The notes under the pieces: generated by a model
What the model was told of the DNA's origin: nothing
What the model saw: only the letters and a program-made list of their open reading frames with translations
Databases searched by the model: none
Part shown: positions 9,706 through 49,021 of the stretch, piece after piece
Layout of the letters: every line of letters starts with the position of its first letter
Position numbering within the stretch: position 1 is the stretch's first letter
From: [Flavobacterium] thermophilum
GTDB taxonomy: Bacteria; Bacillota; Bacilli; Bacillales; Anoxybacillaceae
NCBI GenBank assembly: GCA_900450595.1
Contig: UGGS01000001.1
Coordinates: forward strand, 124,001 to 188,000
DNA length: 64,000 nt
Reading direction: 5' to 3'
Program-made: the position numbers and the translations under genes

Positions 9706-10377
9706 ATGAAGATGAAGGAAGAAAAGGCGGTCGTCGTCTTTAGCGGCGGCCAAGACAGCACGACGTGTTTGTTTTGGGCGAAAAAACAGTTTGGTGAAGT
9801 GGAAGCGGTGACGTTTGACTACGGCCAGCGCCATCGCCGGGAAATTGACGTCGCTCAGGCAATTGCCGCTGAGCTTGGCGTTCGCCATACGGTGCTTGAT
9901 TTGTCGCTTCTCGGGCAGTTGGCGCCGAACGCCTTGACGCGGCGCGACATTGCCATTGAACAAAAGAAAGGCGAGCTGCCGACGACGTTTGTGGATGGGC
10001 GCAATTTATTGTTTTTATCATTCGCTGCCGTGTTCGCCAAACAGCGGGGCGCGCGCCATATTGTGACGGGAGTGTGCGAGACGGATTTCAGCGGCTATCC
10101 GGACTGCCGCGATGTGTTTATCAAATCGTTGAACGTCACGCTGAATTTAGCGATGGATTACGAATTTGTCATTCATACGCCGCTCATGTGGCTGACGAAA
10201 GCGGAGACGTGGAAGCTCGCGGATGAGCTCGGGGCGTTCGAGTTCATTCGCACGAAGACGCTGACGTGCTATAACGGCATCATCGCCGACGGCTGCGGCG
10301 AATGTCCAGCGTGCGTGCTGCGCAAGCGCGGATTGGATGACTATTTGCGGGAAAAAGCGGGGGTGGAGCGGCCATGA
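9706..10377 (+). CDS. queC: 7-cyano-7-deazaguanine synthase QueC
   Basis: This 223-residue enzyme converts 7-carboxy-7-deazaguanine plus ammonia and ATP to preQ0. It shows the PP-loop SGGQDSTT at residues 13-20 and, near the C terminus, the zinc ligands C-x-x-C (CGECPAC). The ATG at 9706 is 9 bases after AAGGAGG. TTG, GTG and a second ATG nearby are alternatives of 2-3 codons. The gene is the first of the preQ1-regulated operon and overlaps queD by 4 bases. Confidence 0.96.
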
Positions 10378-33392: not shown

Positions 33393-34130
33393 CTAAATGA
33401 GCAACAAGGAAACATCGGGATCCGTTACCAATACGATGAGTGGGGAAATATTCATTCTCAATTCGGCGCTTTGGCGGACGAAAACCCATATCGCTATGCG
33501 GGATACCAATATGATGAGGAGACCGGGCTCTACTACTTGATCGCCCGTTACTACCACCCGACCCATGGCGTGTTCTTGTCCATGGACCCAGACCCAGGCG
33601 ATGCCGATGATATTCTGACGCAAAACGGCTATACGTATGCGAACAACAACCCGGTGATGATGGTCGATCCGGATGGGAAGTTTGCGTATGCTGTAGGGCT
33701 TTATTTTGTTCCTGGTGTTGGACAAGTAATGTTAATTGGTACTGCTGCTGTTGTCGGGGCCTATGGAGCGTGGTATTTAGGAAAAAAACTTGGGGAGATA
33801 GACTGGGACCATATTAAAGAGGAGCACGGTCCTAAATCTAATAAAAAGATGAAAGATGGAAAAAAACCAAAAAGTAAGTTTAAAAGTAATAGAACTTTAA
33901 AGAGAACCACTAGAGCAACTGCGAGGACAAAGCCCGTAAGAACAGGTAGATATGGTAGAACTATCCATGAAAAAACATTTAAAAGACCCGTAGGAACAGA
34001 TACTAGGGGGAAACCTACTAATAGAGTAAGAGTCATTCGGGAACCATCCGGTAAAGTTGTAACAAGTTTTCCTTTCTATATAGGTTGCAATAAAGATTTT
34101 CCGATTGTTCGATTCTGTTTTCCTTCATAA
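33393..34130 (+). pseudogene. Orphan Rhs tip with C-terminal toxin-like domain
   Basis: The frame has no start of its own. It begins NEQQGNIGIRYQYDEWGN and shows the conserved Rhs core end: PYRYAGYQYDEETGLYYL, ARYYHPTHGVFLSMDP, YTYANNNPVMMVDPDG. After this border a hydrophobic stretch (GQVMLIGTAAVVGAYGAWYL) precedes a basic domain of about 110 residues with DWDHIKEEHG, a GTDTRGKPTNRVRVI strand and VVTSFPF. That ending resembles BECR/EndoU-type RNase toxins, but the family is not certain. It is a classic silent cassette that can recombine onto a full Rhs gene. Confidence 0.72.
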
Positions 34131-34221: not shown

Positions 34222-34340
34222 TGTAAATTATCACTTTATTTCCGCACAAAAAAGACTCTTTTTTGCACATTCCTTCGGAATATCCCTCTCCCCCTTTCCG
34301 AAAGAATGTGCTAAATTTTTTGTGAATTATTTCGGAATGG
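34222..34340 (+). repeat. Left-end transposase-binding-type sites of element A
   Basis: Related sites of about 17 bp occur in both orientations: CCGAAAGAATGTGCTAA, its inverse TTTGCACATTCCTTCGG, and AATTATTTCGGAA. The same motif fills the right end. Element B has the same set at 35161-35280. Confidence 0.75.
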
Positions 34341-34373
34341 GACATGGGTGATTTCCAGAGGGGGGACGAGGAC

Positions 34374-34704
34374 GTGATTCGGTTTCATGACTTTCAGGTC
34401 GATGTCCAGACATATGCCCAGCGGGGAAAACAAAACGACTTTCCCCTTCTTAAGCGGTGCCCTCATTGCCAGGCAAAACGCCCTCTTTATCGCCATGGGT
34501 ACTACGAACGAAATGCCGTGACGTCGCATCAGTCTTATCGCATTTGGATCGCTCGGTATCGCTGCCCGGAGTGCAGGAGGACGGTGGCCGTGTTGCCTTC
34601 ATTTCTTCTCCCTTATTTTCAGTATACGTTGCCCACCATATGGAGAGTGGTGAAAGAACGGTTGGGCCTGACTCCGAAACGGGGGATGGAGGAGGCTCCA
34701 CTCC
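34374..34704 (+). pseudogene. DUF6431-like zinc protein of element A, 5' part
   Basis: The GTG at 34374 follows a GGGGGGACGAGG tract. Residues 1-110 include a zinc-finger-like RCPHCQAKRPLYRHGYYER and a second pair, RCPECRRTV. The gene is cut by an IS4-type element at 34705 and continues at 39409; joined, it gives 187 residues with no stop. Similar proteins occur beside DDE/AAA transposase pairs and probably help transposition, but the exact role is not known. Confidence 0.75.
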
Positions 34705-34851
34705 CATACCCGTCAAGTTTAGCGGTATAAAATTTTTAAGACGATACTCGTGTTCATCCCCGCAGTGAATGATGGGGATCACATCCATTATTGGGCATAC
34801 CAAATACCCCTCCAGAAGAGGGGTATTTGGTATTTATATCCATATCTAATT

Positions 34852-35160
34852 CTACCATATCTCTAATTTCGTTAAGATATCTGATGCCGTTTCTTCCCCT
34901 TTCCTTCGACCTTTCTTGGCATGTTTTCGTAACAGGGAAAGGAGAGAGAAAAGGTTGATTTCCGCCATATGCGAACGCAAAAGCAACTGGTGCCAATACG
35001 ATTGGAGAAGATCGAGCGCTTTCCGTTCACTGATTTCAATGTCTTCCTTTTGATGCCAATACATCCGAGCTTGAAACAGAAACGTCTGGGTGACCAAAAT
35101 GGCAATCAACGTCCCGTATAAATGGCATTCGAAACGTTCTTTTTTCATCTCCTTGACTTT
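34852..35160 (-). pseudogene. IS4-type transposase, C-terminal part
   Basis: This is the last 102 codons of the transposase that begins at 39303. It contains KERFECHLYGTLIAILVTQT and ends LTKLEIW. An internal ATG gives an apparent 98-residue ORF, but it is the continuation of FDLEKV at 38281: removing element B and one ACTTT restores an uninterrupted frame of 443 codons. Confidence 0.9.
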
Positions 35161-35311
35161 TGTAAATTATCATTTTATTTCAGCACAAAACGCCCATTTT
35201 TTTGCACATTCTTTCAGAAAGCCCTCTCCCCTTTTCTGAAGGAATGTGCTAAATTTTTTGTGAATTGTTTCGGACAAAGATTTCCATTCGTTTCAATGAG
35301 GGGGAGGAAGT

Positions 35312-35875
35312 GTGATCCAGTTTCACGACTTTGGCATTGACATTCAAACGTATACGGATCGTGGGAAAGGGAACGATTTTCCCGACGTGAACCAATGCCC
35401 CCACTGTTCATCCCGCCGCCCCTTGCATCGTCACGGATACTACCAACGCTATGCGTTGACGGCAGAGGGGGAGTATCACCTTTGGATCGCACGATATCGC
35501 TGTCAAGAGTGTCGCAAAACCGTGAGTGTGCTGCCTTCTTTCCTCCTCCCGTATGTTCAATATACACGATCGGTTATTTGGCAAGCGGTCAAAGCATGGT
35601 TCGAAACGCCAAGGCAAGGAGCGAAGACCAAACAGGTTGTTTTTCCCACCAAGGAGGTCATCTTGTTTTATGTCCGACGATTTTGACGGAATCTCTCCCG
35701 CTTGCATCACGCGGCGGCGAGGAGATGGGGGATCATCGGCCCTGTAGGGAACGCAAGAACAGAACGGGCGGTTTGGTGGATGCAGACCTTGGAGGGACGG
35801 GGGGTGGGCTCGATCATCCAAGACCTGTGGACAAACGAAAGGTGGCATCCGTTTGCGGATCAAATTACTTCCTGA
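35312..35875 (+). pseudogene. DUF6431-like zinc protein of element B with in-frame TGA
   Basis: The GTG at 35312 follows GGGGGAGG. Residues 1-124 include QCPHCSSRRPLHRHGYYQR and RCQECRKTV. TGA at 35684-35686 interrupts the frame after FYVRRF; the frame then stays open to 35875 and aligns with the 187-residue protein restored from element A, which has sense codons there. Because B has intact ends and target duplication, either the stop arose after insertion or the C-terminal third is dispensable. Confidence 0.78.
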
Positions 35876-36017
35876 TTTTCTACTTAACACCAAAAATGGA
35901 GATGGTTGATGTTCCCACAAACCCTTCCTCTCGACGAATCTCGAGCCGTTTCGTAAGATAGGGGGTAGAGGGGACCGGGACGGTCCAACATCACAGGGAG
36001 ACAGGGAGGAGATCCAG

Positions 36018-37268
36018 ATGGATGAATCGATGAGACACGACATCGCGCTGTTTCGGTACGGGCTGATCGCTCCGTTGGTGAATGGCCAGGTGGAGCCCAA
36101 AGCGTATTTGAATGAGGTGGGCGGGCGAGTGCACTCGATTCCCCATCAAGGGGACAAACCCATTGCGGCGAAGACGATTCTGGATTGGTGCGCCCGATAC
36201 AAAAAAGGGGGCTTCGACGCCTTGAAGCCGAAGCGCCGTTCGGACCGCGGCCGCTCCAGACGTCTGTCCCCCGATGATGAGGATCATATTCTAGCATTGA
36301 GGAAGGAACATCCCACCATGCCCGTGACCCTATTCTACGAACAACTCACCAAGCAGGGGGACATTCCCACCACCCTCTCATACTTTACTATATACCGATT
36401 GTTGAAAAAACACAACCTGGTGGGAAAAGAAATCTTGCCGATGCCGGAGCGAAAGCGTTTTGCGTATGACCAGATCAATGAGCTATGGCAAGGGGACTTA
36501 TCCCATGGACCCACGATTCGCGTCCATGGGAAAGCCCAGAAAACGTTTTTGATCGCGTATATCGATGACTGCTCGCGGTTAGTGCCATATGCCCAATTTT
36601 TCCCTTCGGAGAAGTTTGACGGGCTGCGGATCGTCACGAAGGAAGCGGTGCTTCGTTGCGGGAAGCCGAAACGCATTTACTCGGACAACGGGAACATTGA
36701 TCGGTCCGAGGTGCTGCAGTATGCGTGCGCCGAGATGGGGATTACACTCATCCACACCCAGCCGTATGACCCGCAAAGCAAGGGAAAAATCGAACGGTTC
36801 TTCCGCACCGTACAGACACGGTTTTATCCACTGTTGGAGCTGAATCCGCCGAAATCGCTTGACGAGTTGAACGAGCGTTTTTGGAAGTGGCTTGAAGAGG
36901 AGTATCATCGAAAACCGCACGCCTCACTGGACGGAAAAACGCCGCATGAGGTGTTTCAATCGCAAGTGCATCTCGTGTCGTTCATCGAAGATGGCGATTG
37001 GCTGGATGCGATTTTTCTGAAACGGGAGCACCGCAAGGTGAAAGCCGATGGCACGATCACCCTGAATAAACAGCTATACGAAGTGCCGCCTCGGTTCATT
37101 GGGCAATCGATTGAGCTCCGCTATGACGAACGAGGCGTCTATGTGTACGAAGATGGCAAACGGGTGGCGGAAGCCATTCGGGTGCGTTTGGAGGACAATG
37201 CCTATGTAAAACGCCATCGGTCCCCGTTTGCGGCGATTCCGGCGAAGGAGGGAGAACACGGTGTATAA
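36018..37268 (+). CDS. DDE transposase (TnsB/TniA/Mu-like) of element B
   Basis: This 416-residue protein has an N-terminal helix-turn-helix region (about 1-130, with AAKTILDWCARYKKGGFDAL and RRLSPDDEDHILALR), then an rve-type catalytic core: Asp in WQGDLSHGP, Asp in IYSDNGN, Glu in SKGKIERFFRTV. A Mu-type beta-barrel C domain follows (LNKQLYEVPPRFIGQSIELRY). A GGAGGAG site precedes the ATG. It overlaps the ATPase gene by 8 bases. The enzyme should cut and join the TGT/ACA ends. Confidence 0.9.
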   Translation: MDESMRHDIALFRYGLIAPLVNGQVEPKAYLNEVGGRVHSIPHQGDKPIAAKTILDWCARYKKGGFDALKPKRRSDRGRSRRLSPDDEDHILALRKEHPTMPVTLFYEQLTKQGDIPTTLSYFTIYRLLKKHNLVGKEILPMPERKRFAYDQINELWQGDLSHGPTIRVHGKAQKTFLIAYIDDCSRLVPYAQFFPSEKFDGLRIVTKEAVLRCGKPKRIYSDNGNIDRSEVLQYACAEMGITLIHTQPYDPQSKGKIERFFRTVQTRFYPLLELNPPKSLDELNERFWKWLEEEYHRKPHASLDGKTPHEVFQSQVHLVSFIEDGDWLDAIFLKREHRKVKADGTITLNKQLYEVPPRFIGQSIELRYDERGVYVYEDGKRVAEAIRVRLEDNAYVKRHRSPFAAIPAKEGEHGV

Positions 37269-38061
37269 ATCGTTTTACTCCCTTTCGCGGGAGCCGTTTG
37301 CGAAAGAAACAGACCCGTCCGAGGCGTATCAAGGGGCGTCATTTCAGGAAGCGTTGCGGGCGCTGGAGTACGTGAAACGAACCCGGGGGATCGGGCTGTT
37401 GATCGGAGAGCCGGGGGCGGGCAAGACGTTCGCCCTTCGGGCGCTGAAAGAGTCATTGAATCCATCATTGTATCATGTCGTCTACTTTCCGTTATCCACC
37501 GGAGGCGTGATGGATTTTTACCGTGGACTGGCCTTGGGATTAGGAGAGGAACCGAAGTACCGCAAGGTAGACCTCTTCCGCCAAATCCAGCAGGCGATCG
37601 AGCGATTGTATCATGAACGGCGGATCACGCCGGTGTTCATTTTGGATGAGATGCATTTAGCGAAGGATGCATTTTTACAGGACATCGCGATCTTGTTCAA
37701 CTTTGAGATGGATTCGACCAACCCATTTGTCTTGATTTTGGCCGGGCTGCCCCATTTACAGGGGAAGCTGCGGCTCAATCAGCACTGCCCTCTCGACCAG
37801 CGGATCATCATGCGATACCGGATGGGGCCGCTGGAGAAGGAAGAGGTGGCGGGCTACATCGAGCATCGGATGAAACAGGCCGGGGCGAAGCACCCGATCT
37901 TCACCCCATCGGCGTTAGAGGCGATTGCCCTGCAGTCGCGGGGATGGCCTCGGGTGATCAACACGTTGGCCACGACGTGCCTGTTATACGGGTATCAGCT
38001 GAAAAAGGACGCCATTGACGAAGAAGTGGTGCGCATGGCCGCAGAGGAAATGGGGTATTAG
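37261..38061 (+). CDS. AAA ATPase (TniB/ExeA-like) of element B
   Basis: This 266-residue ATPase has Walker A GEPGAGKT around residue 45 and Walker B VFILDEMH near residue 128, followed by a sensor segment RIIMRYRMGPL and a winged-helix-like tail. The GTG at 37261 overlaps the transposase stop. In related transposons this protein chooses target DNA and activates the transposase, like MuB or TnsC. 266 residues is the same length as in element A. Confidence 0.9.
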   Translation: MYKSFYSLSREPFAKETDPSEAYQGASFQEALRALEYVKRTRGIGLLIGEPGAGKTFALRALKESLNPSLYHVVYFPLSTGGVMDFYRGLALGLGEEPKYRKVDLFRQIQQAIERLYHERRITPVFILDEMHLAKDAFLQDIAILFNFEMDSTNPFVLILAGLPHLQGKLRLNQHCPLDQRIIMRYRMGPLEKEEVAGYIEHRMKQAGAKHPIFTPSALEAIALQSRGWPRVINTLATTCLLYGYQLKKDAIDEEVVRMAAEEMGY

Positions 38062-38142
38062 CACGAAAGGGGCCGAATCGGCCTCTTTTGTGCTTTCACT
38101 TTTCCATTTTCCATCGGTCCATCAGGCGCGTTGGAAATCTTC

Positions 38143-38275
38143 ATCTGAAAGAGCGTGCAAACGTTCCGAAAGAATGTGCAAAATCCGGAACAATCCGCAA
38201 AAATTTTGCACATTATTTCAGAATCCATCTGAAATAATTTGAAAAAGTGATTCTGAAATAATGTGCTAATTTACA
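38143..38275 (+). repeat. Right-end array of transposase-binding-type sites (element B)
   Basis: Five or six sites with a consensus near TCYGAAATAATGTGCAAA lie in both orientations up to the TTTACA terminus, for example CCGAAAGAATGTGCAAAA, TTTTGCACATTATTTCAG and CTGAAATAATGTGCTAA. Arrays like this are seen at Tn7-type ends. Confidence 0.8.
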
Positions 38276-38280
38276 ACTTT

Positions 38281-39303
38281 CTCCAAATCAAATACGGATT
38301 TCCAGGCTTTAAACAACAATTCAATTTGCCAGCGCAGGGAATAGAGCTCATAAACCTGTTGACCATCAAACGACTCTTGTGGTAAATTCGTCAGTAAGAT
38401 GTGGTATTTCTTTTGTTCGAGGGTTTGGCGTGCCAGCGCCTTCCCTTTTCTTTTTTCCTTTTTCCGCACATACGCCATCCGTTTTTGCCATTCTTCCGCC
38501 GTCAGACGGCGGAAAACCAACCGTGGAACATACAAGCGTTCATGTCCGATGTACACATGTTCCATTTCCACTGATTCCCCTTCCTCTAATTGATTCCCAA
38601 GGGATTCCCAATCCCATTCCTTCCACTGGCCATTCTCCTTGATATACACTTTCATATCGGAACGGAGCCGAGTCATATAATACGCTCCGCGGGCGTCGAT
38701 CTCGGCCAGTGCGGCAACGGAGAAAAAGCCCAAATCCCGAATCCATAGGTCATTCGGTAAAATCGTATGCTGGGCATGATAGGCAAAACGAGCGTCCGAG
38801 TCATTGGCCGATTGAACGCATAGCTGAAGGCAGGCGCCGGATAACAAGTCATATTCAAACTGAATTTTCACCCCCGACGAAACGGAACCTCGATAGTCTT
38901 CCCCATAGTCAGCGGGAACCAAAAAGCTGGTTGAGTCCAAAATCCGCAGGCGGGTAAAACAAGTTCGATAGGTCTCCATGGCTGACAAAAGCAATGGACG
39001 TTGATGCAGGAGGAGAAGGAAAAACACTTCTCGCAAAAATGCCACGGCCCGATCGGTAAAACGCTGATTCAAGCCTTCGCTTGAAAGGGAACAGCCATGC
39101 CAGAGCGTCAAGGCCGCACACAACCGCTGAAGCGACTGTTTGGCCAGTGAGCCATCTCCCCATGCACAGAGAGTCAGAAAGGCTTCCGCCGTTAACGAAC
39201 GCTGCCGCCGGATAAAGCCTGTTTTCCGTGCGAGACGGGTTAATTCTTCGGGAGAAAAGAGTTGACGAATGGTTTGAATCCATGCTTTCATTTGTTTTTC
39301 CAT
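38281..39303 (-). pseudogene. IS4-type transposase, N-terminal part
   Basis: The ATG at 39303 has AAAGGA upstream. 341 codons remain before element B: first catalytic Asp in RILDSTSFLVP, second in WIRDLGFFSV, and the YSLRWQIELLFKAWKS helix with the catalytic Glu. The frame continues at 35160. With 443 residues in total it fits IS231-like IS4 transposases. All catalytic residues are in this part, but the last quarter is separated. Confidence 0.9.
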
Positions 39304-39408
39304 GAAAAAAATCCTTTCTAACGTGGAGTGTTCGTTAGAAAGGATACCATGTTTTTGACGATGCACAAAGACCAAAATTCTTAACTTGATGGGTATGGGC
39401 TCCACTCC

Positions 39409-39641
39409 TTCCTACGGATGAAGGGGTTTTATTTTATGTCCGACGTTTATTCCGAAATTTGAACCACCTTCATTGGTTTTTTGCGGAGCGCTGGAGAAAA
39501 ATTGGTCCTGCCATCGCCCAAGCGAGAGAACGAGTCCTATGGTGGATCCAGACGATGGAGGAGATCGGCCTCTTTTTCGTCATCCAAGAGATATGGGAGC
39601 ACCGATCGACGCATCTTTTTGCACGTACATTCAGTTCCTGA
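39409..39641 (+). pseudogene. DUF6431-like protein of element A, 3' part
   Basis: It continues the gene that began at 34374: the joined codon is followed by PTDEGVLFYVRRLFRNL and ends IWEHRSTHLFARTFSS. At the place where element B has TGA this copy has a sense codon. Not translatable on its own. Confidence 0.72.
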
Positions 39642-39783
39642 TTTTACTTATATCCCCTTATATGGAATCATTTATAGATTCCACAAACCTTTCCTCTCGA
39701 CGGTCGGGGGAATGATCCGATAGGATAGAGACAGGATGGACCGATAAGGTCCTAGAATGGGATGAACGAAGGAGGAGATCGAA

Positions 39784-40194
39784 ATGAATGAGTCGATGAG
39801 ACAGGAGATCGCTTTATTTCGGTATGGATTGATCGCTCCATTGGTGAATGGACAAGTCGATCCAAAAACGTACTTGAAGGAAGTAGCGGAACGGATCCAT
39901 CAAGTTCCCCACCATGGAGAGAAACGCATCGCCGCCAAAACGATCCTCGACTGGTGCACGCAGTACAAAAAAGGGGGCTTTGAGGCGCTGAAGCCGAAAC
40001 GACGGTCGGACCGTGGCCATTCCCGGAGGCTGTCACCTGAAGAAGAGGATCACATTTTAGCCCTGAGAAAAAAACACCCCCACATGCCCGTGACGGTGTT
40101 TTACCAACACCTTATCGAGCAGGGGGAAATCCAATCCATCTCTTATTTCACTATATACCGACTTTTAAAAAAATACAACCTCGTGGGGAAAGAA
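39784..40194 (+). pseudogene. DDE transposase of element A, 5' part
   Basis: The ATG at 39784 follows GGAGGAG. 137 codons of the helix-turn-helix region, closely similar to element B, run to VGKE, where the ISLre2-type element begins. The gene resumes in frame at 41913; joined it is 415 residues. About twenty codons from the inserted element follow before an unrelated stop. Confidence 0.88.
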
Positions 40195-41903
40195 GAGTCA
40201 GTCAAGACTTTGTGGAGAACATTTTTTCGGTTCACTACGGGCGTTGTCAATCACTAGTTAGCGAACCATTTTCAGGAATTCATATCGTAAGCGCTTTCGG
40301 ACTCTCATCCCTCATCTTGAGGCGATGATACGATATTCCATTTTTTTACATACAACCACCATCCCGGAGCGCCGACAACGCTTGATGGATCGGCGTCCCG
40401 GATGACCGCTGCAGACACGGTAGATTCTGACGCACCACATCTGCCCACAACTGTCCTGCCTTCCGTTTGGCCTGTTCAACCCGCTTGGACTTCGTCGAGG
40501 CCGAGGCTGCCGTTCGGGTCTCTTCTTCCTCCACCAACTGCCCATTTCTCCGCCAAATCCCGTCGATTCGGGCTGCCATCGCCCTCAGAAACGCCCGAAG
40601 CCCTTGGTCTTTCCAGCTGCGGCGGGATTTCACCCGATGCGCAAACCGGCTCATCACGCTCTCGGCGTGGCCCATCGGACGCATGCCGGTCGTCTCCACC
40701 CCTTGCTCCGACAGCCACTCCCGATAGTCCCGGATGCATCCCGGCATCGACTCGATCCGGCGGATCATGGCAGCCATCTGCTTCTCTTTCGCTTCGTCCT
40801 CCAACGTGCCGACCGCGCTGTTCAGCTCCACCAGAAGCCCCTCTTCGTCTTGTTTCGCCAGCTTCTTCCGCACCTCCCGCCAACGCGGGTGGCCGGACAG
40901 ACACTGACGAAGCTCCCGCGCCACATGGAACCGATCCAGCTGAAAGCACGCCCGCTTCCCAAAATACTCCCGGCAGGCCGTAATCCAGGATGCCGCGTCG
41001 CCGTTGATGATCAAAAGGTCCCGGCACGGATCATAGGCATATTCGTTCATCAGCCACTCTTCAAACCGTTCCCACACGTCTCCCGCCCCTTCATGGAGGT
41101 AGTGGCGCCGGTTCACGAGCTCGAGCTGCGAACCGTTTCGTTTCCATCCCTCGTGAACCGCCAGGATTTTCTCTTCTTTCGCCCGTTTCCCTTTCCCCTG
41201 GCGGGAAATGAACAGCCCATCCGCCTCCACAAACAGCACTCGGCCGTGCCGTTGGGAAACAGGGTGGTGCAGCGAGACAGGGGCCTCCAGCACCAGTTGG
41301 CGAATCGCCTCGTGGCTTAGGACCGCATACCCCACGATCGACTCCAACGTACGGGCTGCTTTGCGGTAGGAAGAGCACTCTACGGCCAACTCGACCGCCG
41401 TTTCCTCGAGGCAAGGGCTGATCGACTGCGCTCCATCAAAGCCCAGTTCGGCATCCAGCAAGAAGGTATACGCCCCCGCCTGCCGATCATAGTAGTAGTT
41501 CCGTCGAAACGTCACTTCTCCAAACAGCGTTTGGATCGTGGTCGGCCGTTTGTCTTTCAGCTGATACCGGCGCTTGTCCCGCGCTTCCGCCAGTTGTTGA
41601 TCAATCTCCTCCAAAAGGGCCGCCAACAAGACAGCGAACACCTTTTGAAGAGTTCTGACTAATTGTTCCTCCAGCTCTTTTAATAAAGGCCATTCTGTGG
41701 TAAGATGTTTCATGGACTCTCTCCCTCCTGTTTTATGGATGTTGGTCATCACCATCATAGCAGGGAGAGAGTCCTTTTTGCATGACATTTGCTTTTTTCT
41801 ACCGCGCTTCGCTTGGTGGCCCCGACGAGCGTCGCGAACAAAAGTTCGCAACCCTCGTCGGGGAATCATTCCTGAATGTCACCCACAAATATTTTACTCA
41901 CAC
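40195..41903 (-). mobile_element. ISLre2-type insertion sequence in element A
   Basis: The element of 1709 bp is flanked by a 9-bp direct repeat, GGGAAAGAA (40186-40194 and 41904-41912). Its imperfect ends share TTTGTGG and ACATT blocks. A 9-bp duplication and a UPF0236 transposase are typical of ISLre2. A strong hairpin (CCCCGACGAG / CTCGTCGGGG, near 41820-41865) lies between the right end and the transposase start and may block read-in. Confidence 0.9.
40346..41713 (-). CDS. ISLre2-family (UPF0236) transposase
   Basis: This 455-residue transposase starts at the ATG 41713 after AGGAGGGAG. UPF0236 features include FGEVTFRRNYYYDR, the Asp in VEADGLFIS, LLIINGDAASWI and the motif ACFQLDRFHVARELR, together with the C-terminal MGHAESVMSRFAHRVK. 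The frame is full length with no interruption, so this copy may be active. Confidence 0.9.
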   Translation of the reverse strand: MKHLTTEWPLLKELEEQLVRTLQKVFAVLLAALLEEIDQQLAEARDKRRYQLKDKRPTTIQTLFGEVTFRRNYYYDRQAGAYTFLLDAELGFDGAQSISPCLEETAVELAVECSSYRKAARTLESIVGYAVLSHEAIRQLVLEAPVSLHHPVSQRHGRVLFVEADGLFISRQGKGKRAKEEKILAVHEGWKRNGSQLELVNRRHYLHEGAGDVWERFEEWLMNEYAYDPCRDLLIINGDAASWITACREYFGKRACFQLDRFHVARELRQCLSGHPRWREVRKKLAKQDEEGLLVELNSAVGTLEDEAKEKQMAAMIRRIESMPGCIRDYREWLSEQGVETTGMRPMGHAESVMSRFAHRVKSRRSWKDQGLRAFLRAMAARIDGIWRRNGQLVEEEETRTAASASTKSKRVEQAKRKAGQLWADVVRQNLPCLQRSSGTPIHQALSALRDGGCM

Positions 41904-41912
41904 GGGAAAGAA

Positions 41913-42749
41913 ATTTTACCGATTCCTGAACGAAAACGATTCGCGTACGATCAGGTCAATGAGCTCTGGCAAGGTGATTTGTCCCATGGCCCGTTGATTC
42001 GCGTGAATGGCAAAACGCAAAAAACGTTTTTGATTGCCTATATCGATGACTGCTCGCGGGTCGTGCCGTACGCTCAGTTTTTCTCTTCCGAGAAATTTGA
42101 CGGGTTGCGGATCGTAACCAAGGAAGCGCTGCTTCGATACGGAAAGCCGAAGCGAATTTACTCGGATAACGGCAAGATTTATCGGGCGGAACCCTTGCAG
42201 TACGCCTGCGCGGAGTTAGGGATCACCTTGATCCATACCCAGCCGTACGATCCGCAAAGCAAAGGGAAAATCGAACGATTTTTCCGCACCGTACAGACGC
42301 GGTTTTACCCGTTGCTCGAAATGAATTCACCGAAGTCGCTCGAAGAGCTAAACGAGCGATTTTGGAAGTGGTTGGAGGAAGATTACCATCGAAAACCGCA
42401 TGCCTCGTTGAACGGGAAGACGCCACATGAAGTGTTTCAATCGCAAGTCCATTTGGTGTCGTTCGTCGAGGATTCGGATTGGCTCGACTCGATCTTTTTG
42501 AAACGCGAATACCGTAAAGTGAAGGCCGATGGTACGGTCACGTTGAACAAGCAGCTGTATGAAGTTCCGCCCCGGTTCATCGGACAATCGATCGAACTCC
42601 GTTATGATGAACAAGGCGTGTATGTGTACGAAGACGGTCAACGGGTCGCCGAAGCGTTCCTTGTTCGCTTCGAGGACAATGCCTATGTGAAACGCCATCG
42701 GTCACCGTTTGCGGCGGTTCCGGTAGAGGGAGGCGAAAACGATGTATAA
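41913..42749 (+). pseudogene. DDE transposase of element A, catalytic part
   Basis: It continues from 40194 with ILPIPERKRFAYDQVNELWQ. It has all three acids (WQGDLSHGP, YSDNGK, SKGKIERFFRT) and the C-terminal beta domain. The long upstream extension of the open frame belongs to the ISLre2 element. It overlaps the ATPase start by 8 bases as in element B. Confidence 0.88.
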
Positions 42750-43542
42750 AACGTTTTATTCCCTTTCCCGAGAGCCGTTTTCGAAGGAGACGAATCCACC
42801 AGAGGCTTATCAAGGGGCCTCGTATCAAGAGGCCCTCGCCGCTTTGGACTACGTGAAACGAACAAGAGGGATCGGGCTATTGATCGGTGAACCAGGGGCC
42901 GGCAAGACATTCGCCCTTCGGGCGTTTAAGGAATCCCTGAATCCGTCACTGTATCACGTCGTTTATTTTCCATTGTCAACGGGAAGCGTGATGGACTTTT
43001 ATCGCGGCCTTGCCTTCGGGCTCGGGGAAGAGCCGAAATACCGCAAGGTCGACTTGTTTTATCAAATCCAACAAGGGATCGAGCGCTTGTATCATGAACA
43101 ACGGGTAACGTCAGTGTTCATCCTCGATGAAATGCATTTAGCGAAGGATGCCTTTCTGCAGGATATCGCGATCCTGTTCAACTTTCACATGGACTCAACA
43201 AATCCGTTTGTCTTGATTTTGGCGGGGCTGCCCCATTTACAGGCAAAACTACGGTTGAATCAACACCGTCCGCTTCACCAACGAATCATCATGCGATACC
43301 AGATGGGGCCTCTTGATAAGGAAGAAGTGGTAGGATATATCGAACACCGCCTGAAACAGGCGGGGGCGAAACACCCGATTTTTACCCCAGCTGCCTTAGA
43401 AGCGATCGCCCTGCAGTCGCAGGGGTGGCCGCGGATCATCAACAACCTCGCCACCACTTGCCTGTTATACGGCGCTCAATTAAAAAAACATATGATTGAC
43501 GAAGACATTGTGCGTATGGCAGCCGAAGAAATGGGGTACTGA
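42742..43542 (+). CDS. AAA ATPase (TniB/ExeA-like) of element A
   Basis: A 266-residue homologue of the element B ATPase, highly similar throughout, with GEPGAGKT and VFILDEMH. The start is ATG here and GTG in B. The frame is intact although the transposase gene before it is broken, so it could only act in trans, perhaps for element B. Confidence 0.88.
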   Translation: MYKTFYSLSREPFSKETNPPEAYQGASYQEALAALDYVKRTRGIGLLIGEPGAGKTFALRAFKESLNPSLYHVVYFPLSTGSVMDFYRGLAFGLGEEPKYRKVDLFYQIQQGIERLYHEQRVTSVFILDEMHLAKDAFLQDIAILFNFHMDSTNPFVLILAGLPHLQAKLRLNQHRPLHQRIIMRYQMGPLDKEEVVGYIEHRLKQAGAKHPIFTPAALEAIALQSQGWPRIINNLATTCLLYGAQLKKHMIDEDIVRMAAEEMGY

Positions 43543-43607
43543 CACAGCAGGGGCTGATCGGCCCCTGTTATGTTTCATCCCGATCCATCCTCATTCTAGT
43601 TAATCAT

Positions 43608-43738
43608 CCGAAATAATGTGCAAATGTTCGGAAATAATCTGCAAAACCTGGAATAATTCGCAAAGATTTTGCACATTATTTCCGAATCCGTCCGAAATAA
43701 TTTGAAAAAGGGATTCTGAAATAATGTGCTAATTTACA
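43608..43738 (+). repeat. Right-end array of transposase-binding-type sites (element A)
   Basis: Six sites related to TCCGAAATAATGTGCAAA, among them CGGAAATAATCTGCAAAA, TTTTGCACATTATTTCCG (inverted) and CTGAAATAATGTGCTAA, ending at TTTACA. Spacing agrees with element B, from which it differs by substitutions. Confidence 0.8.
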
Positions 43739-43796
43739 ACAAGGAATTCCACATAAGTGGAATCCCTTGTCCCTAAATCCTTTTCCTAATTTCCAG

Positions 43797-43850
43797 TGTC
43801 GATGGTGGGAGTCGAACCCACACGGGTAAAGCCCACACGATTTTGAGTCG
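43797..43850 (-). tRNA. tRNA-Leu(CAA) 3' fragment, att-site-like
   Basis: On the minus strand the anticodon arm CGA-CTCAAAA-TCG (anticodon CAA) is followed by a long variable arm GGGC/ACCC, a full T arm (GTGGG-TTCGACT-CCCAC) and the acceptor strand CATCGACA. The D arm and 5' acceptor strand are absent: the sequence beyond 43850 does not fit. Integrative elements that use tRNA 3' ends leave such a fragment on one side. Confidence 0.8.
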
Positions 43851-44308: not shown

Positions 44309-44740
44309 TTAAATAAGCTTCTTTGCAAATCCAATGCTTTTTTGTTCATAACCCATATTAATATAAAATTGATGAGCAGTTAAACGTTCTGTACGATTTC
44401 CACTATTTACTCCAATACTGATAGCTCCTTGTCTTTTTGCCCAACTTTCTGCTTCTTCTATTAACTTTCTTCCTATACCTTTGCTACGATAGTTAGAATC
44501 TACAACTAAAGCTACGATTCTAACATAAGAACCATCCAATTCATAAAAAACCCCAGTACATAATCCAATCATTCCAACAACTTTTCCATCATATTCAGCA
44601 ACTAAAGTATGATAGCTTGGGTTTGATTCAATATTACTAAATCTAATTCTCATCTGTTCAACAGAGGTTGGATAACCAAGTTGCTCCATTAAAGATGCTA
44701 ATTCAGGAATATCATTAGAAGTAGCTTTTCTAATTTCCAT
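44309..44740 (-). CDS. GNAT family N-acetyltransferase (143 aa)
   Basis: It has the GNAT fold with the acetyl-CoA loop YRSKGIGRKLIEEAE (motif A) near residue 85 and a C-terminal NMGYEQKSIGFAKKL strand. The substrate is unknown; aminoglycoside or amino-acid acetylation cannot be told from sequence. A GGAGGA site precedes the ATG at 44740. AT-rich codon use differs from the chromosomal backbone. IS1634 inserted 78 bases upstream may have replaced its promoter. Confidence 0.88.
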   Translation of the reverse strand: MEIRKATSNDIPELASLMEQLGYPTSVEQMRIRFSNIESNPSYHTLVAEYDGKVVGMIGLCTGVFYELDGSYVRIVALVVDSNYRSKGIGRKLIEEAESWAKRQGAISIGVNSGNRTERLTAHQFYINMGYEQKSIGFAKKLI

Positions 44741-44818
44741 ACGATTCCTCCTTCATTTAATGTTATTATTGAATTATTTCCTCATTTCTAAATAGTTTTC
44801 CTTCTTAACTCACATTTC

Positions 44819-46698
44819 GCACCCTAACAAGGTCAAAACAAAGGATTTTTTATTTAGTTTTTCAGAATAACTTTTTGACCAACACGACAAGCGATGGCAA
44901 TCCTTTTTTTACCATCGCTAGTCGTTCCGTATAACCTTTACAAGTAAATGCTCTCATCCATCCCTAATCCTTGCAGAATCCTTCGCTGATCAGGGGTGAG
45001 CGGTTTCCCCAGCCTGCGTTGGATTTGCCCATCCGGCAGTTCCAACAGGACGACTCTGACATACCAAAACAATTGAAAAATCGCTTGTCCGGTTGGCCGG
45101 GTCAATTTCCGGCCTCCTGCGCCCTTTAACGGGCGTTCAGGTGTGATGAACTGACGCACTCGGCGCTGGAAGACGCGGTAAATGGCCAAGGCCAGCAAAA
45201 ACAAATAGCCCAATACCGCCACTCGTTCGGGTTTTTTGACGTAAATTTCGTCCGTAAAGAACGGATCTTTTAGGAAGGAGAAGTTCATTTCCACCGAGAT
45301 CTGCCCTTTATACAGCTTCAAGATCTCTTGGGCATCCATGGGTTGGCCCTTCCATTCCTTCGGAACGGTCGTGACGAGAACAAACCGGGACGCTTTCCGT
45401 CTCGCCTGCTCCCACGCGTCTTGGTTGAATTCCACGCTCAGCCGAAGGGTGTACAGCGTCTCCATTTCCGGTTCCGCCCCTTTTTTCGGCCGTCCACGCC
45501 GTTTTTTCGGACGCACGATCTCTTCGACGACGGCCTCCACTCGATGGAACCGGGGACGAAGGGATGCCTTCAAGGAGGCCAAGGCTTGTTCGGCGTCTTC
45601 CCGGCAAGAGAAAGGATGACGCTCCCAACGGGCTTGTTCCTCGCGAAGAAGCTCCGCTTCTTTGGTTCGTTCTGTTTCGAGCGTCTTTCCTTTTCGCTGG
45701 TCGAGCGCACTCGATTCGACGACGATCAGTCGTACGGGCTGGCCTTCATATGTCGAGGCCGTTTCCCATACCCGGTACGTGGCGCCGTTTTTCTCGGCCA
45801 GCGCAAAGGGGGCGCTCCACGCCGAATCGGGTTGGGCATCCGCCTCCGAAAGCGCCGTTTTGACAATCCGGAGCGACGACGGCCCTCTCGTGATCAAAAA
45901 GGCGTTGGCGGCTTTCGTTTGCGCCAGCGTGTCCTTCGTCATCGCAGCGGAATCTGCCACGTAAATCCATTCGTCTTCGATCTTCGCTTCCCTCAGCTGC
46001 TCATGGACACGGGAGAGCACCTCGGGATTCCACGTTTTGTCCGGCGCGTTGCCGTCGTGCACGTCGCCGTAAAACGGGATGCCGTCCTCGTTGCCGATCA
46101 GGCCGAATCCGATCTGCTTTTGCCAGCGATGATGGCGGTTATAGCCATAGGTGATGTGCAACCCATCCGACGAATCGGATTCATACGCACCGTAAACCGT
46201 CTTGTCCGTCGTATCCGCGTGAAAGACACGGAGAGGGAGGCCTTCTTTCTTGTAGATTTGCACCAGGCAAGACGAAAGGACTTGATGGATATTGGCCTCA
46301 TACAGCCGGTCCAAATGGCGAGCAATGGCATCGTCGTTGAACCAAGACGGATCCAATCCTGGCCGGATCAGCTTGGGCAAGTCGATGTCATGCGCCCACC
46401 GTTCCAAATGAACGAGGGCTTGCCGGCCGCTCAAGATATCCAAGAGAAGCAGCCCGACCACATCACTGGCTCGGGTTTGGCATTGAGGATCCACCGGAAC
46501 CAGCCGGTCAATCAGCTGAGGGAGGCCAAGATCTTTGAAAATGGTACTTATTATATTCAAATAGAAACTTTCATAAATCGCCCGAATTCGAACGTCCATG
46601 ATGGAAAAACTCCTTTGCATTCCTTGTGTGTCAAGGACCTATTCGACACCGGGATGAAAAAATCCTCCCGATTTTGGTCGAGAGGGTGCGAAATGTGA
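44819..46698 (-). mobile_element. IS1634-family element, copy 1
   Basis: 1880 bp with inverted terminal repeats CTCACATTTCGCACCCT and a 6-bp target duplication TCTTAA (44813-44818, 46699-46704). The second copy at 52943-54829 is inverted relative to this one. Confidence 0.95.
44938..46599 (-). CDS. IS1634-family transposase (copy 1)
   Basis: A 553-residue IS4-superfamily transposase. Catalytic features: Asp in VFHADTTDKTVYG, Asp in IYVADSAAMTKD, and the late YKGQISVEMNFSFLKDP segment with the Glu. A basic hinge KKRRGRPKKG lies near residue 355. The ATG at 46599 follows AAAGGAG; seven more upstream codons are open but contain that site. Full length, probably active. Confidence 0.93.
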   Translation of the reverse strand: MDVRIRAIYESFYLNIISTIFKDLGLPQLIDRLVPVDPQCQTRASDVVGLLLLDILSGRQALVHLERWAHDIDLPKLIRPGLDPSWFNDDAIARHLDRLYEANIHQVLSSCLVQIYKKEGLPLRVFHADTTDKTVYGAYESDSSDGLHITYGYNRHHRWQKQIGFGLIGNEDGIPFYGDVHDGNAPDKTWNPEVLSRVHEQLREAKIEDEWIYVADSAAMTKDTLAQTKAANAFLITRGPSSLRIVKTALSEADAQPDSAWSAPFALAEKNGATYRVWETASTYEGQPVRLIVVESSALDQRKGKTLETERTKEAELLREEQARWERHPFSCREDAEQALASLKASLRPRFHRVEAVVEEIVRPKKRRGRPKKGAEPEMETLYTLRLSVEFNQDAWEQARRKASRFVLVTTVPKEWKGQPMDAQEILKLYKGQISVEMNFSFLKDPFFTDEIYVKKPERVAVLGYLFLLALAIYRVFQRRVRQFITPERPLKGAGGRKLTRPTGQAIFQLFWYVRVVLLELPDGQIQRRLGKPLTPDQRRILQGLGMDESIYL

Positions 46699-46727
46699 GT
46701 CTTAAAATAAACTACCCTGTTAGTTCA

Positions 46728-46762
46728 ATAAAAAAAGCGATACCCTCTTGTTGAAGTATCGC
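46728..46762 (-). terminator. Terminator next to repeat R2
   Basis: On the minus strand GCGATAC pairs with GTATCGC, then TTTTTTT. It follows repeat R2 and closes the GNAT transcript. Confidence 0.85.
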
Positions 46763-46766
46763 ACCC

Positions 46767-46829
46767 GTTAGCCAACCATAAAGCAAGCTTCACCACAGAT
46801 GATGGAAATTAATTTGTTCTTCCATGGGA
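46767..46829 (-). repeat. Structured repeat R2, overlapping the GNAT stop codon
   Basis: About 63 bp, plus strand GTTAGCCAACCATAAAGC through TTCCATGGGA. The repeat supplies the last five codons (HGRTN) and the TAA of the GNAT gene at 46809. Confidence 0.82.
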
Positions 46830-47408
46830 ATTGAATAAGGGATTATTCTTTTTAAGCTCATCCCATTCCTCTCGAAGAATACCCATCCGAATGGAATCAT
46901 AGTATTCGCCATTATAGTAGCGGCATTTTCTCATTCTCCCTTCTAATCGCATTCCCAATTTTTCCGCACATCTGATCATTCGTGGGTTTCCAGACCAAGT
47001 CGTCAGACCCACTCTCTCAATGGGTAGATTTTCAAAGAGATAGTCAATCCATATAGATAATGCTTCTGTTCCAAATCTACCATTCCAATGTTCAGGAGAA
47101 TATATGACGATTCCCATTTCAAGCCATCGTGTACGTTTATCCTCCCAATAATAGCTAACCATACCTATAATTTGACTTTGATATTCTATAATCATTTGAC
47201 TTGGTACATCCGTAACATTCATTCTTTCTTCCATTTTCTTAGAAAACTTTTCAAAGGTACAAAATTCAAGCGGATAATAAGGAGCATCGTACTTTTTCCA
47301 TTCTGGATTCTCCACACCATATATCAGGTTATACAGAATTGGCAAATCATCGTGCGTTGGTGTCCGCAGAAATATTCTTTTTCCTGTCAGCGACAACTTT
47401 TGCAACAT
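46809..47408 (-). CDS. GNAT N-acetyltransferase, RimJ/RimL-like (199 aa)
   Basis: It shows the RimJ/RimL pattern: GKRIFLRTPTHDDLPIL at the N terminus, EMGIVIYSPEHWNGRFGTEA as acetyl-CoA loop, and NPRMIRCAEKLGMRLEGRMR near the end. The start is the ATG 47408 after AGGGGGTGG; the ORF extends further upstream but crosses the terminator at 47501. Its final codons lie inside repeat R2. The substrate is unknown. Confidence 0.87.
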   Translation of the reverse strand: MLQKLSLTGKRIFLRTPTHDDLPILYNLIYGVENPEWKKYDAPYYPLEFCTFEKFSKKMEERMNVTDVPSQMIIEYQSQIIGMVSYYWEDKRTRWLEMGIVIYSPEHWNGRFGTEALSIWIDYLFENLPIERVGLTTWSGNPRMIRCAEKLGMRLEGRMRKCRYYNGEYYDSIRMGILREEWDELKKNNPLFNSHGRTN

Positions 47409-47500
47409 AGATCCACCCCCTATCTTACAGAATTCAACAATCCATGTTATTATCCCTTTTCTAAAAGGCTCTATTATCAATGGTTGATTTTCGACCGATG

Positions 47501-47534
47501 AAAAAGCCACCTTGTGATGATAAGGCAGCTTTTT
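47501..47534. terminator. Hairpin between two GNAT genes
   Basis: AAAAAGCCACCTT pairs with AAGGCAGCTTTTT around a short loop. It lies just after the stop of the next GNAT gene on the minus strand. Confidence 0.8.
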
Positions 47535-47547
47535 GTACATATTTTAT

Positions 47548-48087
47548 TTAACTATCGCACCATTCGTTCAATAACCCTTCGTTACTTTCTTTAAATCCCG
47601 AGTATATATAATGGTTCTTACCGAAAATAAATACTTCTTTTTCCTTAATGAAACCAATCTTCTCTGCCACACGAATGGATGGAACATTTCTTGGATCAAT
47701 AATACTGATCAGCTTATTTAAACCCAATTTATCAAACGCATATTCCTTGCACGCTTTAGCTGCTTCTGTTGCGAACCCCTTTGACCAATACTTTTTATTA
47801 ATGTGATATCCAATCTCCACTTCTATACCCTCATTTATTTTTTGTTTAACAAGACCACAATCCCCGATCAATTCATTCGTTTCCTTCAAACAAACCGCCC
47901 ATAATCCATAACCATCATTCCGATATCTATCTTGATTTCGTTTAATCCAGTCTTGAGTTTGCTCAATACTAAAGGGAGCTGGATAAAACTTCATGGTTTC
48001 TGGGTCAGAAAAAATACTATGTAGAGGAGTTATATCTTCATCTTCATATTGTCTTAATATCAACCTTTGTGTCTCAAGAACAATCAT
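47548..48087 (-). CDS. GNAT N-acetyltransferase, RimJ/RimL-like (179 aa)
   Basis: It begins LETQRLILRQYEDEDITPLH, has EIGYHINKKYWSKGFATEA as acetyl-CoA loop and VPSIRVAEKIGFIKEKE near the end, all typical of Acetyltransf_3. The substrate is unknown. The ATG at 48087 is preceded by AAAGGGGATGGGG. Repeat R3 lies upstream of it, which is downstream of the neighbouring GNAT gene. Confidence 0.9.
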   Translation of the reverse strand: MIVLETQRLILRQYEDEDITPLHSIFSDPETMKFYPAPFSIEQTQDWIKRNQDRYRNDGYGLWAVCLKETNELIGDCGLVKQKINEGIEVEIGYHINKKYWSKGFATEAAKACKEYAFDKLGLNKLISIIDPRNVPSIRVAEKIGFIKEKEVFIFGKNHYIYSGFKESNEGLLNEWCDS

Positions 48088-48175
48088 TTCCCCATCCCCT
48101 TTTGTTTAATCTCACGTTTTGACTAATATTATTTGACTTAAGATTAAATTCCTTGCTCCTTCAACCATCCTACCC

Positions 48176-48237
48176 CTTAGCCACCCATGAAGCGAGCTTC
48201 GCCACAGATGACGAAGTTAATTCGCTCTTCCATAAGA
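48176..48237 (-). repeat. Structured repeat R3 behind a GNAT gene
   Basis: Same family as R1 and R2: plus strand CTTAGCCACCCATGAAGCG to CTCTTCCATAAGA, 18 bases after the stop of the GNAT gene at 48256. The GAAG/CTTC stems are kept. Confidence 0.8.
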
Positions 48238-48255
48238 GTTGAAGAACACTTGAAA

Positions 48256-48810
48256 CTAATTCACAAAATAAGCCATTAAGATCAAGTCATAATAAGTCTG
48301 TTCATCTATCTTAATCGCTTTTGTTTTAAGACCTTCTTCCACAAACCCAAAATTTCTGTATAAACGAAGGGCACTCGTATTGTTAGCAAATACTTCAAGA
48401 CAAACCTTTTCAATTAAAGGGTTTTCCTTTGCCCAATCTAATAACACAGTTAGCAATGCTTTGCCTACTCCTTGGTTTCTGAAATCTTTTTTAACGCTCA
48501 TACCAAAAGAGCCTTGATGTTTTATTCGCTGCCTATGTCCATTATGAAAATCTAAAAATCCAATAATTTCTCCATCATACTCAGCTAAAATAGCCAATTT
48601 TCCATTGTCATCAAGCATTTGCTGCAACAATTGTTTTTGCTGTTCACTTGTTACCTTAAATTCTGCTTCGGTAGTAAGTAAATAAGGTGCTTCACAGATA
48701 ACGGTTTTGATAAATGTTACCACTTTATCTGCATCTCTGGGCAAAGCAGTTCTTACTACAAATTTTTTACCGCTCTTAGTCATAAATTGCTTTGTTTGTA
48801 TCTCTCCCAT
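48256..48810 (-). CDS. GNAT family N-acetyltransferase (184 aa)
   Basis: The acetyl-CoA loop FRNQGVGKALLTVLLDWAKE and the following CLEVFANNTSALRLYRNFGF are classic for GNATs acting on small molecules or protein N termini. The ATG at 48810 follows AGGGTGG; a GTG three codons earlier lies within that site. The substrate is unknown. AT-rich, like the neighbouring acetyltransferases. Confidence 0.88.
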   Translation of the reverse strand: MGEIQTKQFMTKSGKKFVVRTALPRDADKVVTFIKTVICEAPYLLTTEAEFKVTSEQQKQLLQQMLDDNGKLAILAEYDGEIIGFLDFHNGHRQRIKHQGSFGMSVKKDFRNQGVGKALLTVLLDWAKENPLIEKVCLEVFANNTSALRLYRNFGFVEEGLKTKAIKIDEQTYYDLILMAYFVN

Positions 48811-49021
48811 AGATACCACCCTATTATTTATTTAATTCGGTTCCTCGGATTAAGTGGTGGAAACGTTAATTTCGGAATTATATAAAAAAATAAGATATTC
48901 GGATTATATGGTGGAACATCTATTGAGTTTTATATTTTGAAATAACGTTATTGAACATTTCGTCGTACTGTTCACCAAATATTTTGTTTTCTTTGAAGAT
49001 ACATAAAATATGTTAAATAAC

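Follow-up and report, generated by a model that had tools for sequence, protein, structure and literature searches.

Architecture of the locus

The window, i.e., the whole stretch of 64,000 nucleotides that was analysed, belongs to a Geobacillus-like genome of 3.73 Mb in 5 contigs. It contains a transposon (element A) in which two genes are interrupted by insertion sequences, one of which is itself split by a second transposon of the same family (element B). The features of this nest are as follows.

34222..43738, + strand: element A, a DUF6431 - tniA - tniB transposon with two interruptions and no target duplication (ends and flanks read directly; relatives)
34374..34704, + strand: 5′ piece of the DUF6431 gene of A (Pfam PF20020, 1.5e-12; natural uninterrupted copy in L074)
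34705..39397 (B included), − strand: IS4-family element, split by B (NCBIfam transpos_IS4_1 on the larger piece; genomic copies)
35156..35160 (left) and 38276-38280 (right): ACTTT, the 5-bp target duplication of B (direct reading and comparison of IS4 copies)
35161..38275, + strand: element B, same family as A (ends read; copies compared)
36018..37268, + strand: tniA of B, a DDE transposase with Mu-C domain (Pfam, NCBIfam and PDB matches)
37261..38061, + strand: tniB of B, an AAA ATPase of MuB/TnsC type (Pfam; the MuB match itself was obtained with tniB of A)
39398..39641, + strand: 3′ piece of the DUF6431 gene of A, opening with the right copy of the 11-bp duplication at 39398-39408 (L074 comparison)
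39784..40194, + strand: 5′ piece of tniA of A, codons 1-137, its last bases being the left copy of GGGAAAGAA
40150..40178, − strand: antisense sigma-A-like promoter sequence TTGTAT-17-TATAGT within tniA, 16 nt from the ISLre2 end (sequence match only)
40195..41903, − strand: ISLre2-family element (NCBIfam transpos_ISLre2; 9-bp duplication GGGAAAGAA at 40186-40194 and 41904-41912)
41904..42749, + strand: 3′ piece of tniA of A (Pfam; comparison with B)
42742..43542, + strand: tniB of A (Pfam; PDB match to MuB)

By direct reading, element A begins with TGTAAATTA at 34222 and ends with TAATTTACA at 43738, and its outer flanks are ATTAT and ACAAG, so that a target duplication is absent. The IS4-family element is bordered on each side by the 11-bp duplication GGCTCCACTCC, the left copy of which (34694-34704) lies inside the 5′ piece of DUF6431. 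To the left of A, a frame at 33471-34130 resembles by eye the end of an Rhs-type repeat gene, and to the right, four frames at 44309-48819 resemble GNAT acetyltransferases, likewise by eye.

Nature of elements A and B

Judging from their encoded proteins, A and B are TnsB/MuB-type elements with DUF6431, tniA and tniB. Both encode, according to Pfam, a DUF6431 protein, a DDE transposase with a Mu C-terminal domain (rve and Mu-transpos_C, as in TnsB) and an AAA ATPase (AAA_22) of the MuB/TnsC type. In the PDB, TniA of B matches retroviral integrases, IS5376 transposase chains and the TnsB chain 7svw (E 5.5e-4), while TniB of A matches the MuB chain 8xvb (E 2.9e-4). The DUF6431 protein gave no PDB match at E ≤ 0.001, and its predicted model is of low confidence (mean pLDDT 64.8).

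The elements thus share with Tn7/Tn5053-type transposons the transposase that matches TnsB and IS5376-transposase chains, the MuB-like ATPase, ends of the form TGT...ACA with repeated internal motifs, and a 5-bp duplication in part of the family copies. In contrast, no TniQ family was among the Pfam and NCBIfam hits of the 10 proteins scanned, including the main genes of A and B, and no TnsA or resolvase family was among those of the scanned A and B proteins. They differ further in that the third gene encodes a DUF6431 protein with four conserved cysteines, some copies have 7-bp repeats, and no cargo genes were seen. TniA of B also exceeds the NCBIfam cut-off for the IS481 family (239.8 bits versus 224), whereas the two TniA pieces of A score below it (75.2 and 168.2 bits). 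IS481 elements are usually single-gene, whereas A and B have two further genes between their ends, tniB (ATPase) and DUF6431. Little was found in print on a TnsB/MuB-type family with DUF6431 and without TniQ, and nothing that joined Geobacillus, tniB and transposon.

The assignment of B to the same family as A by the earlier note is borne out by the shared gene set and identities, though the two represent different lineages. TniA is 76% (N piece) and 88% (C piece) identical between them, TniB 88% and DUF6431 60%, and the terminal 121 and 150 aligned bases are 83% alike. In addition to B, the genome holds four other B-type loci with TniA 95-99% identical to that of B, their element DNA being 98.9, 96.7, 94.4 and 89.0% identical to it. 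The closest named relatives of TniB of A are found in Ureibacillus, Geobacillus and Anoxybacillus, the more distant ones in Halanaerobium and others. DUF6431 of B has an in-frame stop at 35684-35686, while the copies at C2:470733 and C4:36796 read through to 187 codons. A 3095-bp contig of Ureibacillus terrenus (L115) constitutes an A-type element from end to end and carries a coverage of 4215 in its name, which may reflect many copies of the element.

Identity of the two insertion sequences

The larger piece of the IS4-type transposase (379 aa) scores 241.9 bits against the model NF033592 (cut-off 115), and the element has inverted ends CATACCC(G/A)TCAAGTT in addition to its 11-bp duplication, in line with the target duplication of about 9-12 bp in the IS4 family. 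The ISLre2-type transposase scores 352.6 bits against NF033529 (cut-off 200). A duplication, of the 8-9 bp expected for ISLre2, is present in 17 of the 25 copies examined, and the flank registers described below agree with entry in a fixed orientation, upstream of sigma-A promoters by 16 bp. The published rule for ISLre2/TnGBS places the insertion, in a fixed orientation, upstream of a sigma-A promoter at a distance of about 16 bp (PMC3942029). The window copy resembles this group (p-MULT 3) in its 9-bp duplication, its orientation and a putative sigma-A promoter 16 bp from the IRr end; the one difference found is that the promoter-like sequence lies antisense within the gene of another transposon.

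Elements of the same two families, ISGka3 (IS4) and ISGka4 (ISLre2), were shown to move in Geobacillus kaustophilus HTA426 (PMC8024623). Here the likeness is at the level of the family, and as a difference, the account given there reports no consensus around its insertion sites.

Natural uninterrupted copies and the assembly

The earlier note had described an IS4-type insertion with an 11-bp repeat, an ISLre2-type insertion with a 9-bp repeat and entry of B with the 5-bp repeat ACTTT, and had stated that removal of each insert plus one repeat restores frames of 187, 415 and 443 codons. Direct reading of the duplications and ends confirmed this nest, and natural intact genes of all three sizes were found. 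DUF6431 comprises 187 codons in two B-type copies and also in L074 when counted from a GTG start (197 codons from an upstream ATG), TniA comprises 415 codons in L116, and the IS4 transposase comprises 443 codons from an internal ATG (hand count inside a 501-codon ORF). Compared as they stand with uninterrupted copies, the pieces abutted, and their overlaps equalled the duplications. The two IS4 pieces of the window match the genomic copy L037 at 100% over 460 and 1123 nt and overlap on it by exactly 5 nt, which is the duplication made by B; the same overlap was seen on the four other IS4 copies compared. Similarly, a copy of A in genome G010 (L074, 10835-15646) contains ISLre2 and lacks both IS4 and B, and on it the sequences beside the window IS4 overlap by exactly 11 nt.

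The right-hand IS4 piece has 7 other matches in the genome (8 including its own), and ISLre2 has 18 other near full-length ones (19 including its own). Since each guest is thus multi-copy, the other copies define where it starts and stops. The same abundance could in principle have misled the assembly, by wrongly joining the 8 IS4, 19 near full-length ISLre2 and five B-type loci (own copies included). An 11-kb repeat starting 131 bp to the right of A also recurs at the start of contig C1 (43870-54835 versus G000:C1:1-10961, 99.8%, 3 mismatches and 18 gap openings), and the beginning of this contig may be a collapsed or unpolished repeat. However, a misassembly is highly improbable, because locus-specific sequence is duplicated around each guest in matching copies of 5, 9 and 11 bp, which argues against a chimera, and another genome has an A that carries ISLre2 while its IS4 site is empty. 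The nest is genuine, well documented and made by known kinds of element.

Flanks of element A and its missing duplication

The left flank of A is unoccupied in genome G002 (contig C91, L165), where the sequence continues through a palindrome. A split this palindrome after ATTAT, and the left flank in the window contains an inserted repeat of about 120 bp that has many copies in the genus. The right flank (43739-43850) consists of a terminator and a 3′ fragment of tRNA-Leu(CAA), 89% like the surroundings of the true tRNA-Leu(CAA) gene at C1:2046541; the fragment is perhaps an old island attachment remnant. Beyond 27 bases of the left flank, the native right side had no match among the other loci compared.

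Among 19 family copies with both flanks, target repeats of 5 bp were found in 5, of 7 bp in 4 and of 4 bp in 1, while 9 had none. Copies with a missing end, no flank or an ambiguous reading were left out of this count (L013, L048, L076, L121, L122, L131, L141 and L155-L157), L139 and L077 represent one place, and in several further loci neither end was seen. In one of the omitted copies (L013, about 9860-10030, the copy at G000:C1:2043760), a short repeat whose inverted ends are long appears by eye to have taken the place of the left end.

A possible, though rather doubtful, explanation for the missing duplication of A is intramolecular replicative transposition with an adjacent deletion, as expected for TnsB/MuB-type elements without TnsA. 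It would fit the lack of a TnsA or resolvase family among the scanned A and B proteins, the 9 of 19 copies without a duplication, and the description of relatives without TnsA as replicative (PMC11406308). However, recombination between copies or a later IS-driven deletion would look alike, and the tRNA-Leu fragment in the right flank suggests an unrelated junction.

Spacing of family copies

B inserted 0.94 kb from the left end of A, from which the earlier note had deduced that these elements lack strong target immunity or tolerate diverged relatives. Weak immunity is compatible with the data and a fair hypothesis, but A and B belong to different lineages and there is just one other close pair. 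For comparison, the ends of Tn7 lower insertion over distances of up to 190 kb, and for VchCAST the efficiency at 0-5 kb is 0-20% (both as cited in PMC12452197). Spacing was evaluated in 9 genomes with few contigs, whereby fragments of one element were merged and some contig sizes were rounded. Two pairs closer than 20 kb were seen versus 0.33 expected, namely the A-B pair, which had prompted the test, and two copies in G007 that lie 17 kb apart in opposite orientation. Within 190 kb, 3 pairs were seen versus 3.1 expected, a comparison with very little power. No depletion of close pairs was hence observed across the 9 genomes, one of the two close pairs being A-B itself.

That the family is devoid of target immunity altogether is conceivable, with a chance somewhat below even. 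The proximity of B to A, despite ends that are about 83% alike, and the G007 pair speak for it, whereas A and B may fail to recognise one another, a single close pair was found within a lineage and the 190-kb comparison lacks power.

Recurrent insertion of ISLre2 at one nucleotide of tniA

The copy of A in G010 carries ISLre2 at the identical nucleotide and in the same orientation as A in the window. Outside ISLre2 the two copies differ at 3 positions in about 3.1 kb, compared with 53 inside it (52 in a second alignment), and the G010 copy occupies an unrelated site, where it is flanked by the clean 5-bp duplication GCGGG. Its ISLre2 differs by a single nucleotide from three further copies in G010, but by 52 from the window copy. 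Moreover, the base 42470C is common to this G010 element and the G010 copies L078 and L083, which lack ISLre2 there, while the position is G in the window, L079, L115 and L116. Because the G010 ISLre2 is close to its G010 residents and 42470C is shared with ISLre2-free G010 copies, the simpler account is that the window and G010 insertions are probably two independent events at the same nucleotide.

In total, the same start nucleotide and orientation were found in 4 elements from 3 genomes (A in the window, A and a diverged C-type copy in G010, and an element of the diverged lineage in G030). In a junction search of 41 family genomes, 2 genomes gave matches, 3 in all (A in the window, A in G010 and the G010 C-type copy), and in 397 genomes of the order, a sample that left out G010 and G030, only the window matched (1 of 397). 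In G030, the junction contains an additional base, and the ISLre2 there is only about 71% alike. For the C-type copy and G030, left junctions alone are seen, the right one being lost in the former and beyond the contig in the latter. The tniA sequence beside these two junctions is 99.4% identical over 319 bases, and they may represent one event or two.

We also considered whether the window and G010 insertions could go back to a single event, with the IS and one base of A changed later by gene conversion. In a related version, ISLre2 inserted once in A, the unit of A and ISLre2 moved in trans to both sites, and the residents then converted the IS. The few differences outside ISLre2 and the clean GCGGG duplication agree with such movement, for which the uninterrupted G010 copies L078 and L079 could act in trans. 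It is nevertheless unlikely, because 42470C ties the G010 copy to ISLre2-free copies of the same genome, its ISLre2 is far closer to three G010 residents than to the window copy, and movement of A as a unit leaves the hit at the same site in the C lineage unexplained. Independent insertion therefore stays the preferred reading. Identical insertion points in two genomes thus need not represent one shared event, as an element that homes on promoters, like ISLre2, can strike one nucleotide repeatedly. This recurrent landing site in tniA is the part of the analysis worth keeping.

In a tblastn search for ISLre2 near such elements, 110 loci matched TniA or TniB, many of which overlap or span 1.5-kb flanks only. 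Among the loci compared, ISLre2 lay between two tniA pieces only at the shared site, and ISLre2 matches beside tniA or tniB were found in L010, L116, L137 and L150. The remnant near tniA in L116 (Geobacillus thermocatenulatus) lacks the exact junction and was left out of the count. Another G010 copy of A (L083, 4507-5946) is interrupted in tniA by an insertion that looks IS3-like by eye.

A promoter-like sequence antisense to tniA

Of 23 ISLre2 copies outside tniA, L089 was left out and the duplicate flank L105 was dropped, and the flanks of the remaining 21 sites were aligned. On the IRr side, TTG stands at exactly 16 nt in 12 of the 21 sites, in 4 others at 15 nt and in one at 17 nt, while on the opposite side no offset has TTG in more than 3 sites. 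At that register the mean of the best −10 match is 4.81 of 6, compared with 2.1 to 3.3 at registers other than 15-18. Two of the copies, L103 and L105, have identical near flanks without a duplication in distant places, which suggests that a host segment was duplicated or recombined.

The tniA site reads TTGTGT-17-TATAGT in B as well as in C-type copies without an interruption; another insertion has changed its −10 part in the C-type copy of G010. With a model built from the 21 sites, the tniA site ranks 5th of 6098 positions in A (second distinct group) and 5th of 6138 in B, one other site being slightly higher in both. It ranks 8th of 4010 in the partial C-type sequence (third group), where two sites are higher. 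The hit at tniA thus likely follows the published ISLre2 promoter rule, and this rule together with the promoter-like sequence is the likely cause of the recurrent hits.

The −35 part of the tniA site is weak, consisting of TTG only, and generic promoter scans did not report the antisense sequence in tniA. A synonymous-conservation scan of 11 representatives for selection on an antisense promoter gave no peak. The codons ACT 124 and ATA 125 are found again in most relatives with at least 65% identity, except that L141 (76%) has GTA and two decayed copies are frameshifted; relatives below 65% differ. On the antisense strand of B, 2 terminator-like stems were found versus 2.0 expected from shuffled sequence. 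Tn5053 offers an analogy only: it harbours an antisense gene, ardD, inside tniA (PMC3533173), but the ardD promoter lies elsewhere. That the antisense promoter of tniA works and controls the transposase, with ISLre2 homing there and repeatedly silencing a rival transposon at one nucleotide, seems quite improbable. Nevertheless, the sequence is a candidate antisense promoter within a transposase gene, which can be tested.

Order of events and proposed history

Combined, these data point to the following history. The TnsB/MuB-type transposon A would have acquired the IS4-family element in DUF6431, and B, a related transposon of the same family, would then have entered that element. Separately, an ISLre2-family element would have entered tniA of A, choosing its site by the family rule about 16 bp upstream of the antisense sigma-A-like promoter sequence. 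Both broken genes of A would be non-functional in cis. The right side of A would have been lost or recombined after insertion, resulting in the absence of a duplication. Such stepwise nesting, in which four ordinary transpositions took place, the locus was rearranged as well and the promoter rule set the ISLre2 site, is very probable; the rearrangement is supported by the unoccupied left site in a relative, which continues differently.

The earlier note had read a complete order of events from the locus. That each host preceded its guest is forced, and in this respect the order of transposition can be read cleanly from the nest. However, the arrival of A is undated, because it has no duplication and its left and right flanks derive from separate sites, and ISLre2 is unordered relative to IS4 and B; the nest may have been built at its present locus or brought there. 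The intermediate state sought by the earlier note exists in G010, as A with ISLre2 and without IS4 and B, but the order of ISLre2 versus IS4 and B is left unsettled by it, as its ISLre2 is probably an independent hit. A hint that ISLre2 may be the older guest is that a resident copy matches the window IS4 at 100% while ISLre2 has diverged, being at least 31 nt from each of the 19 other G000 copies aligned.
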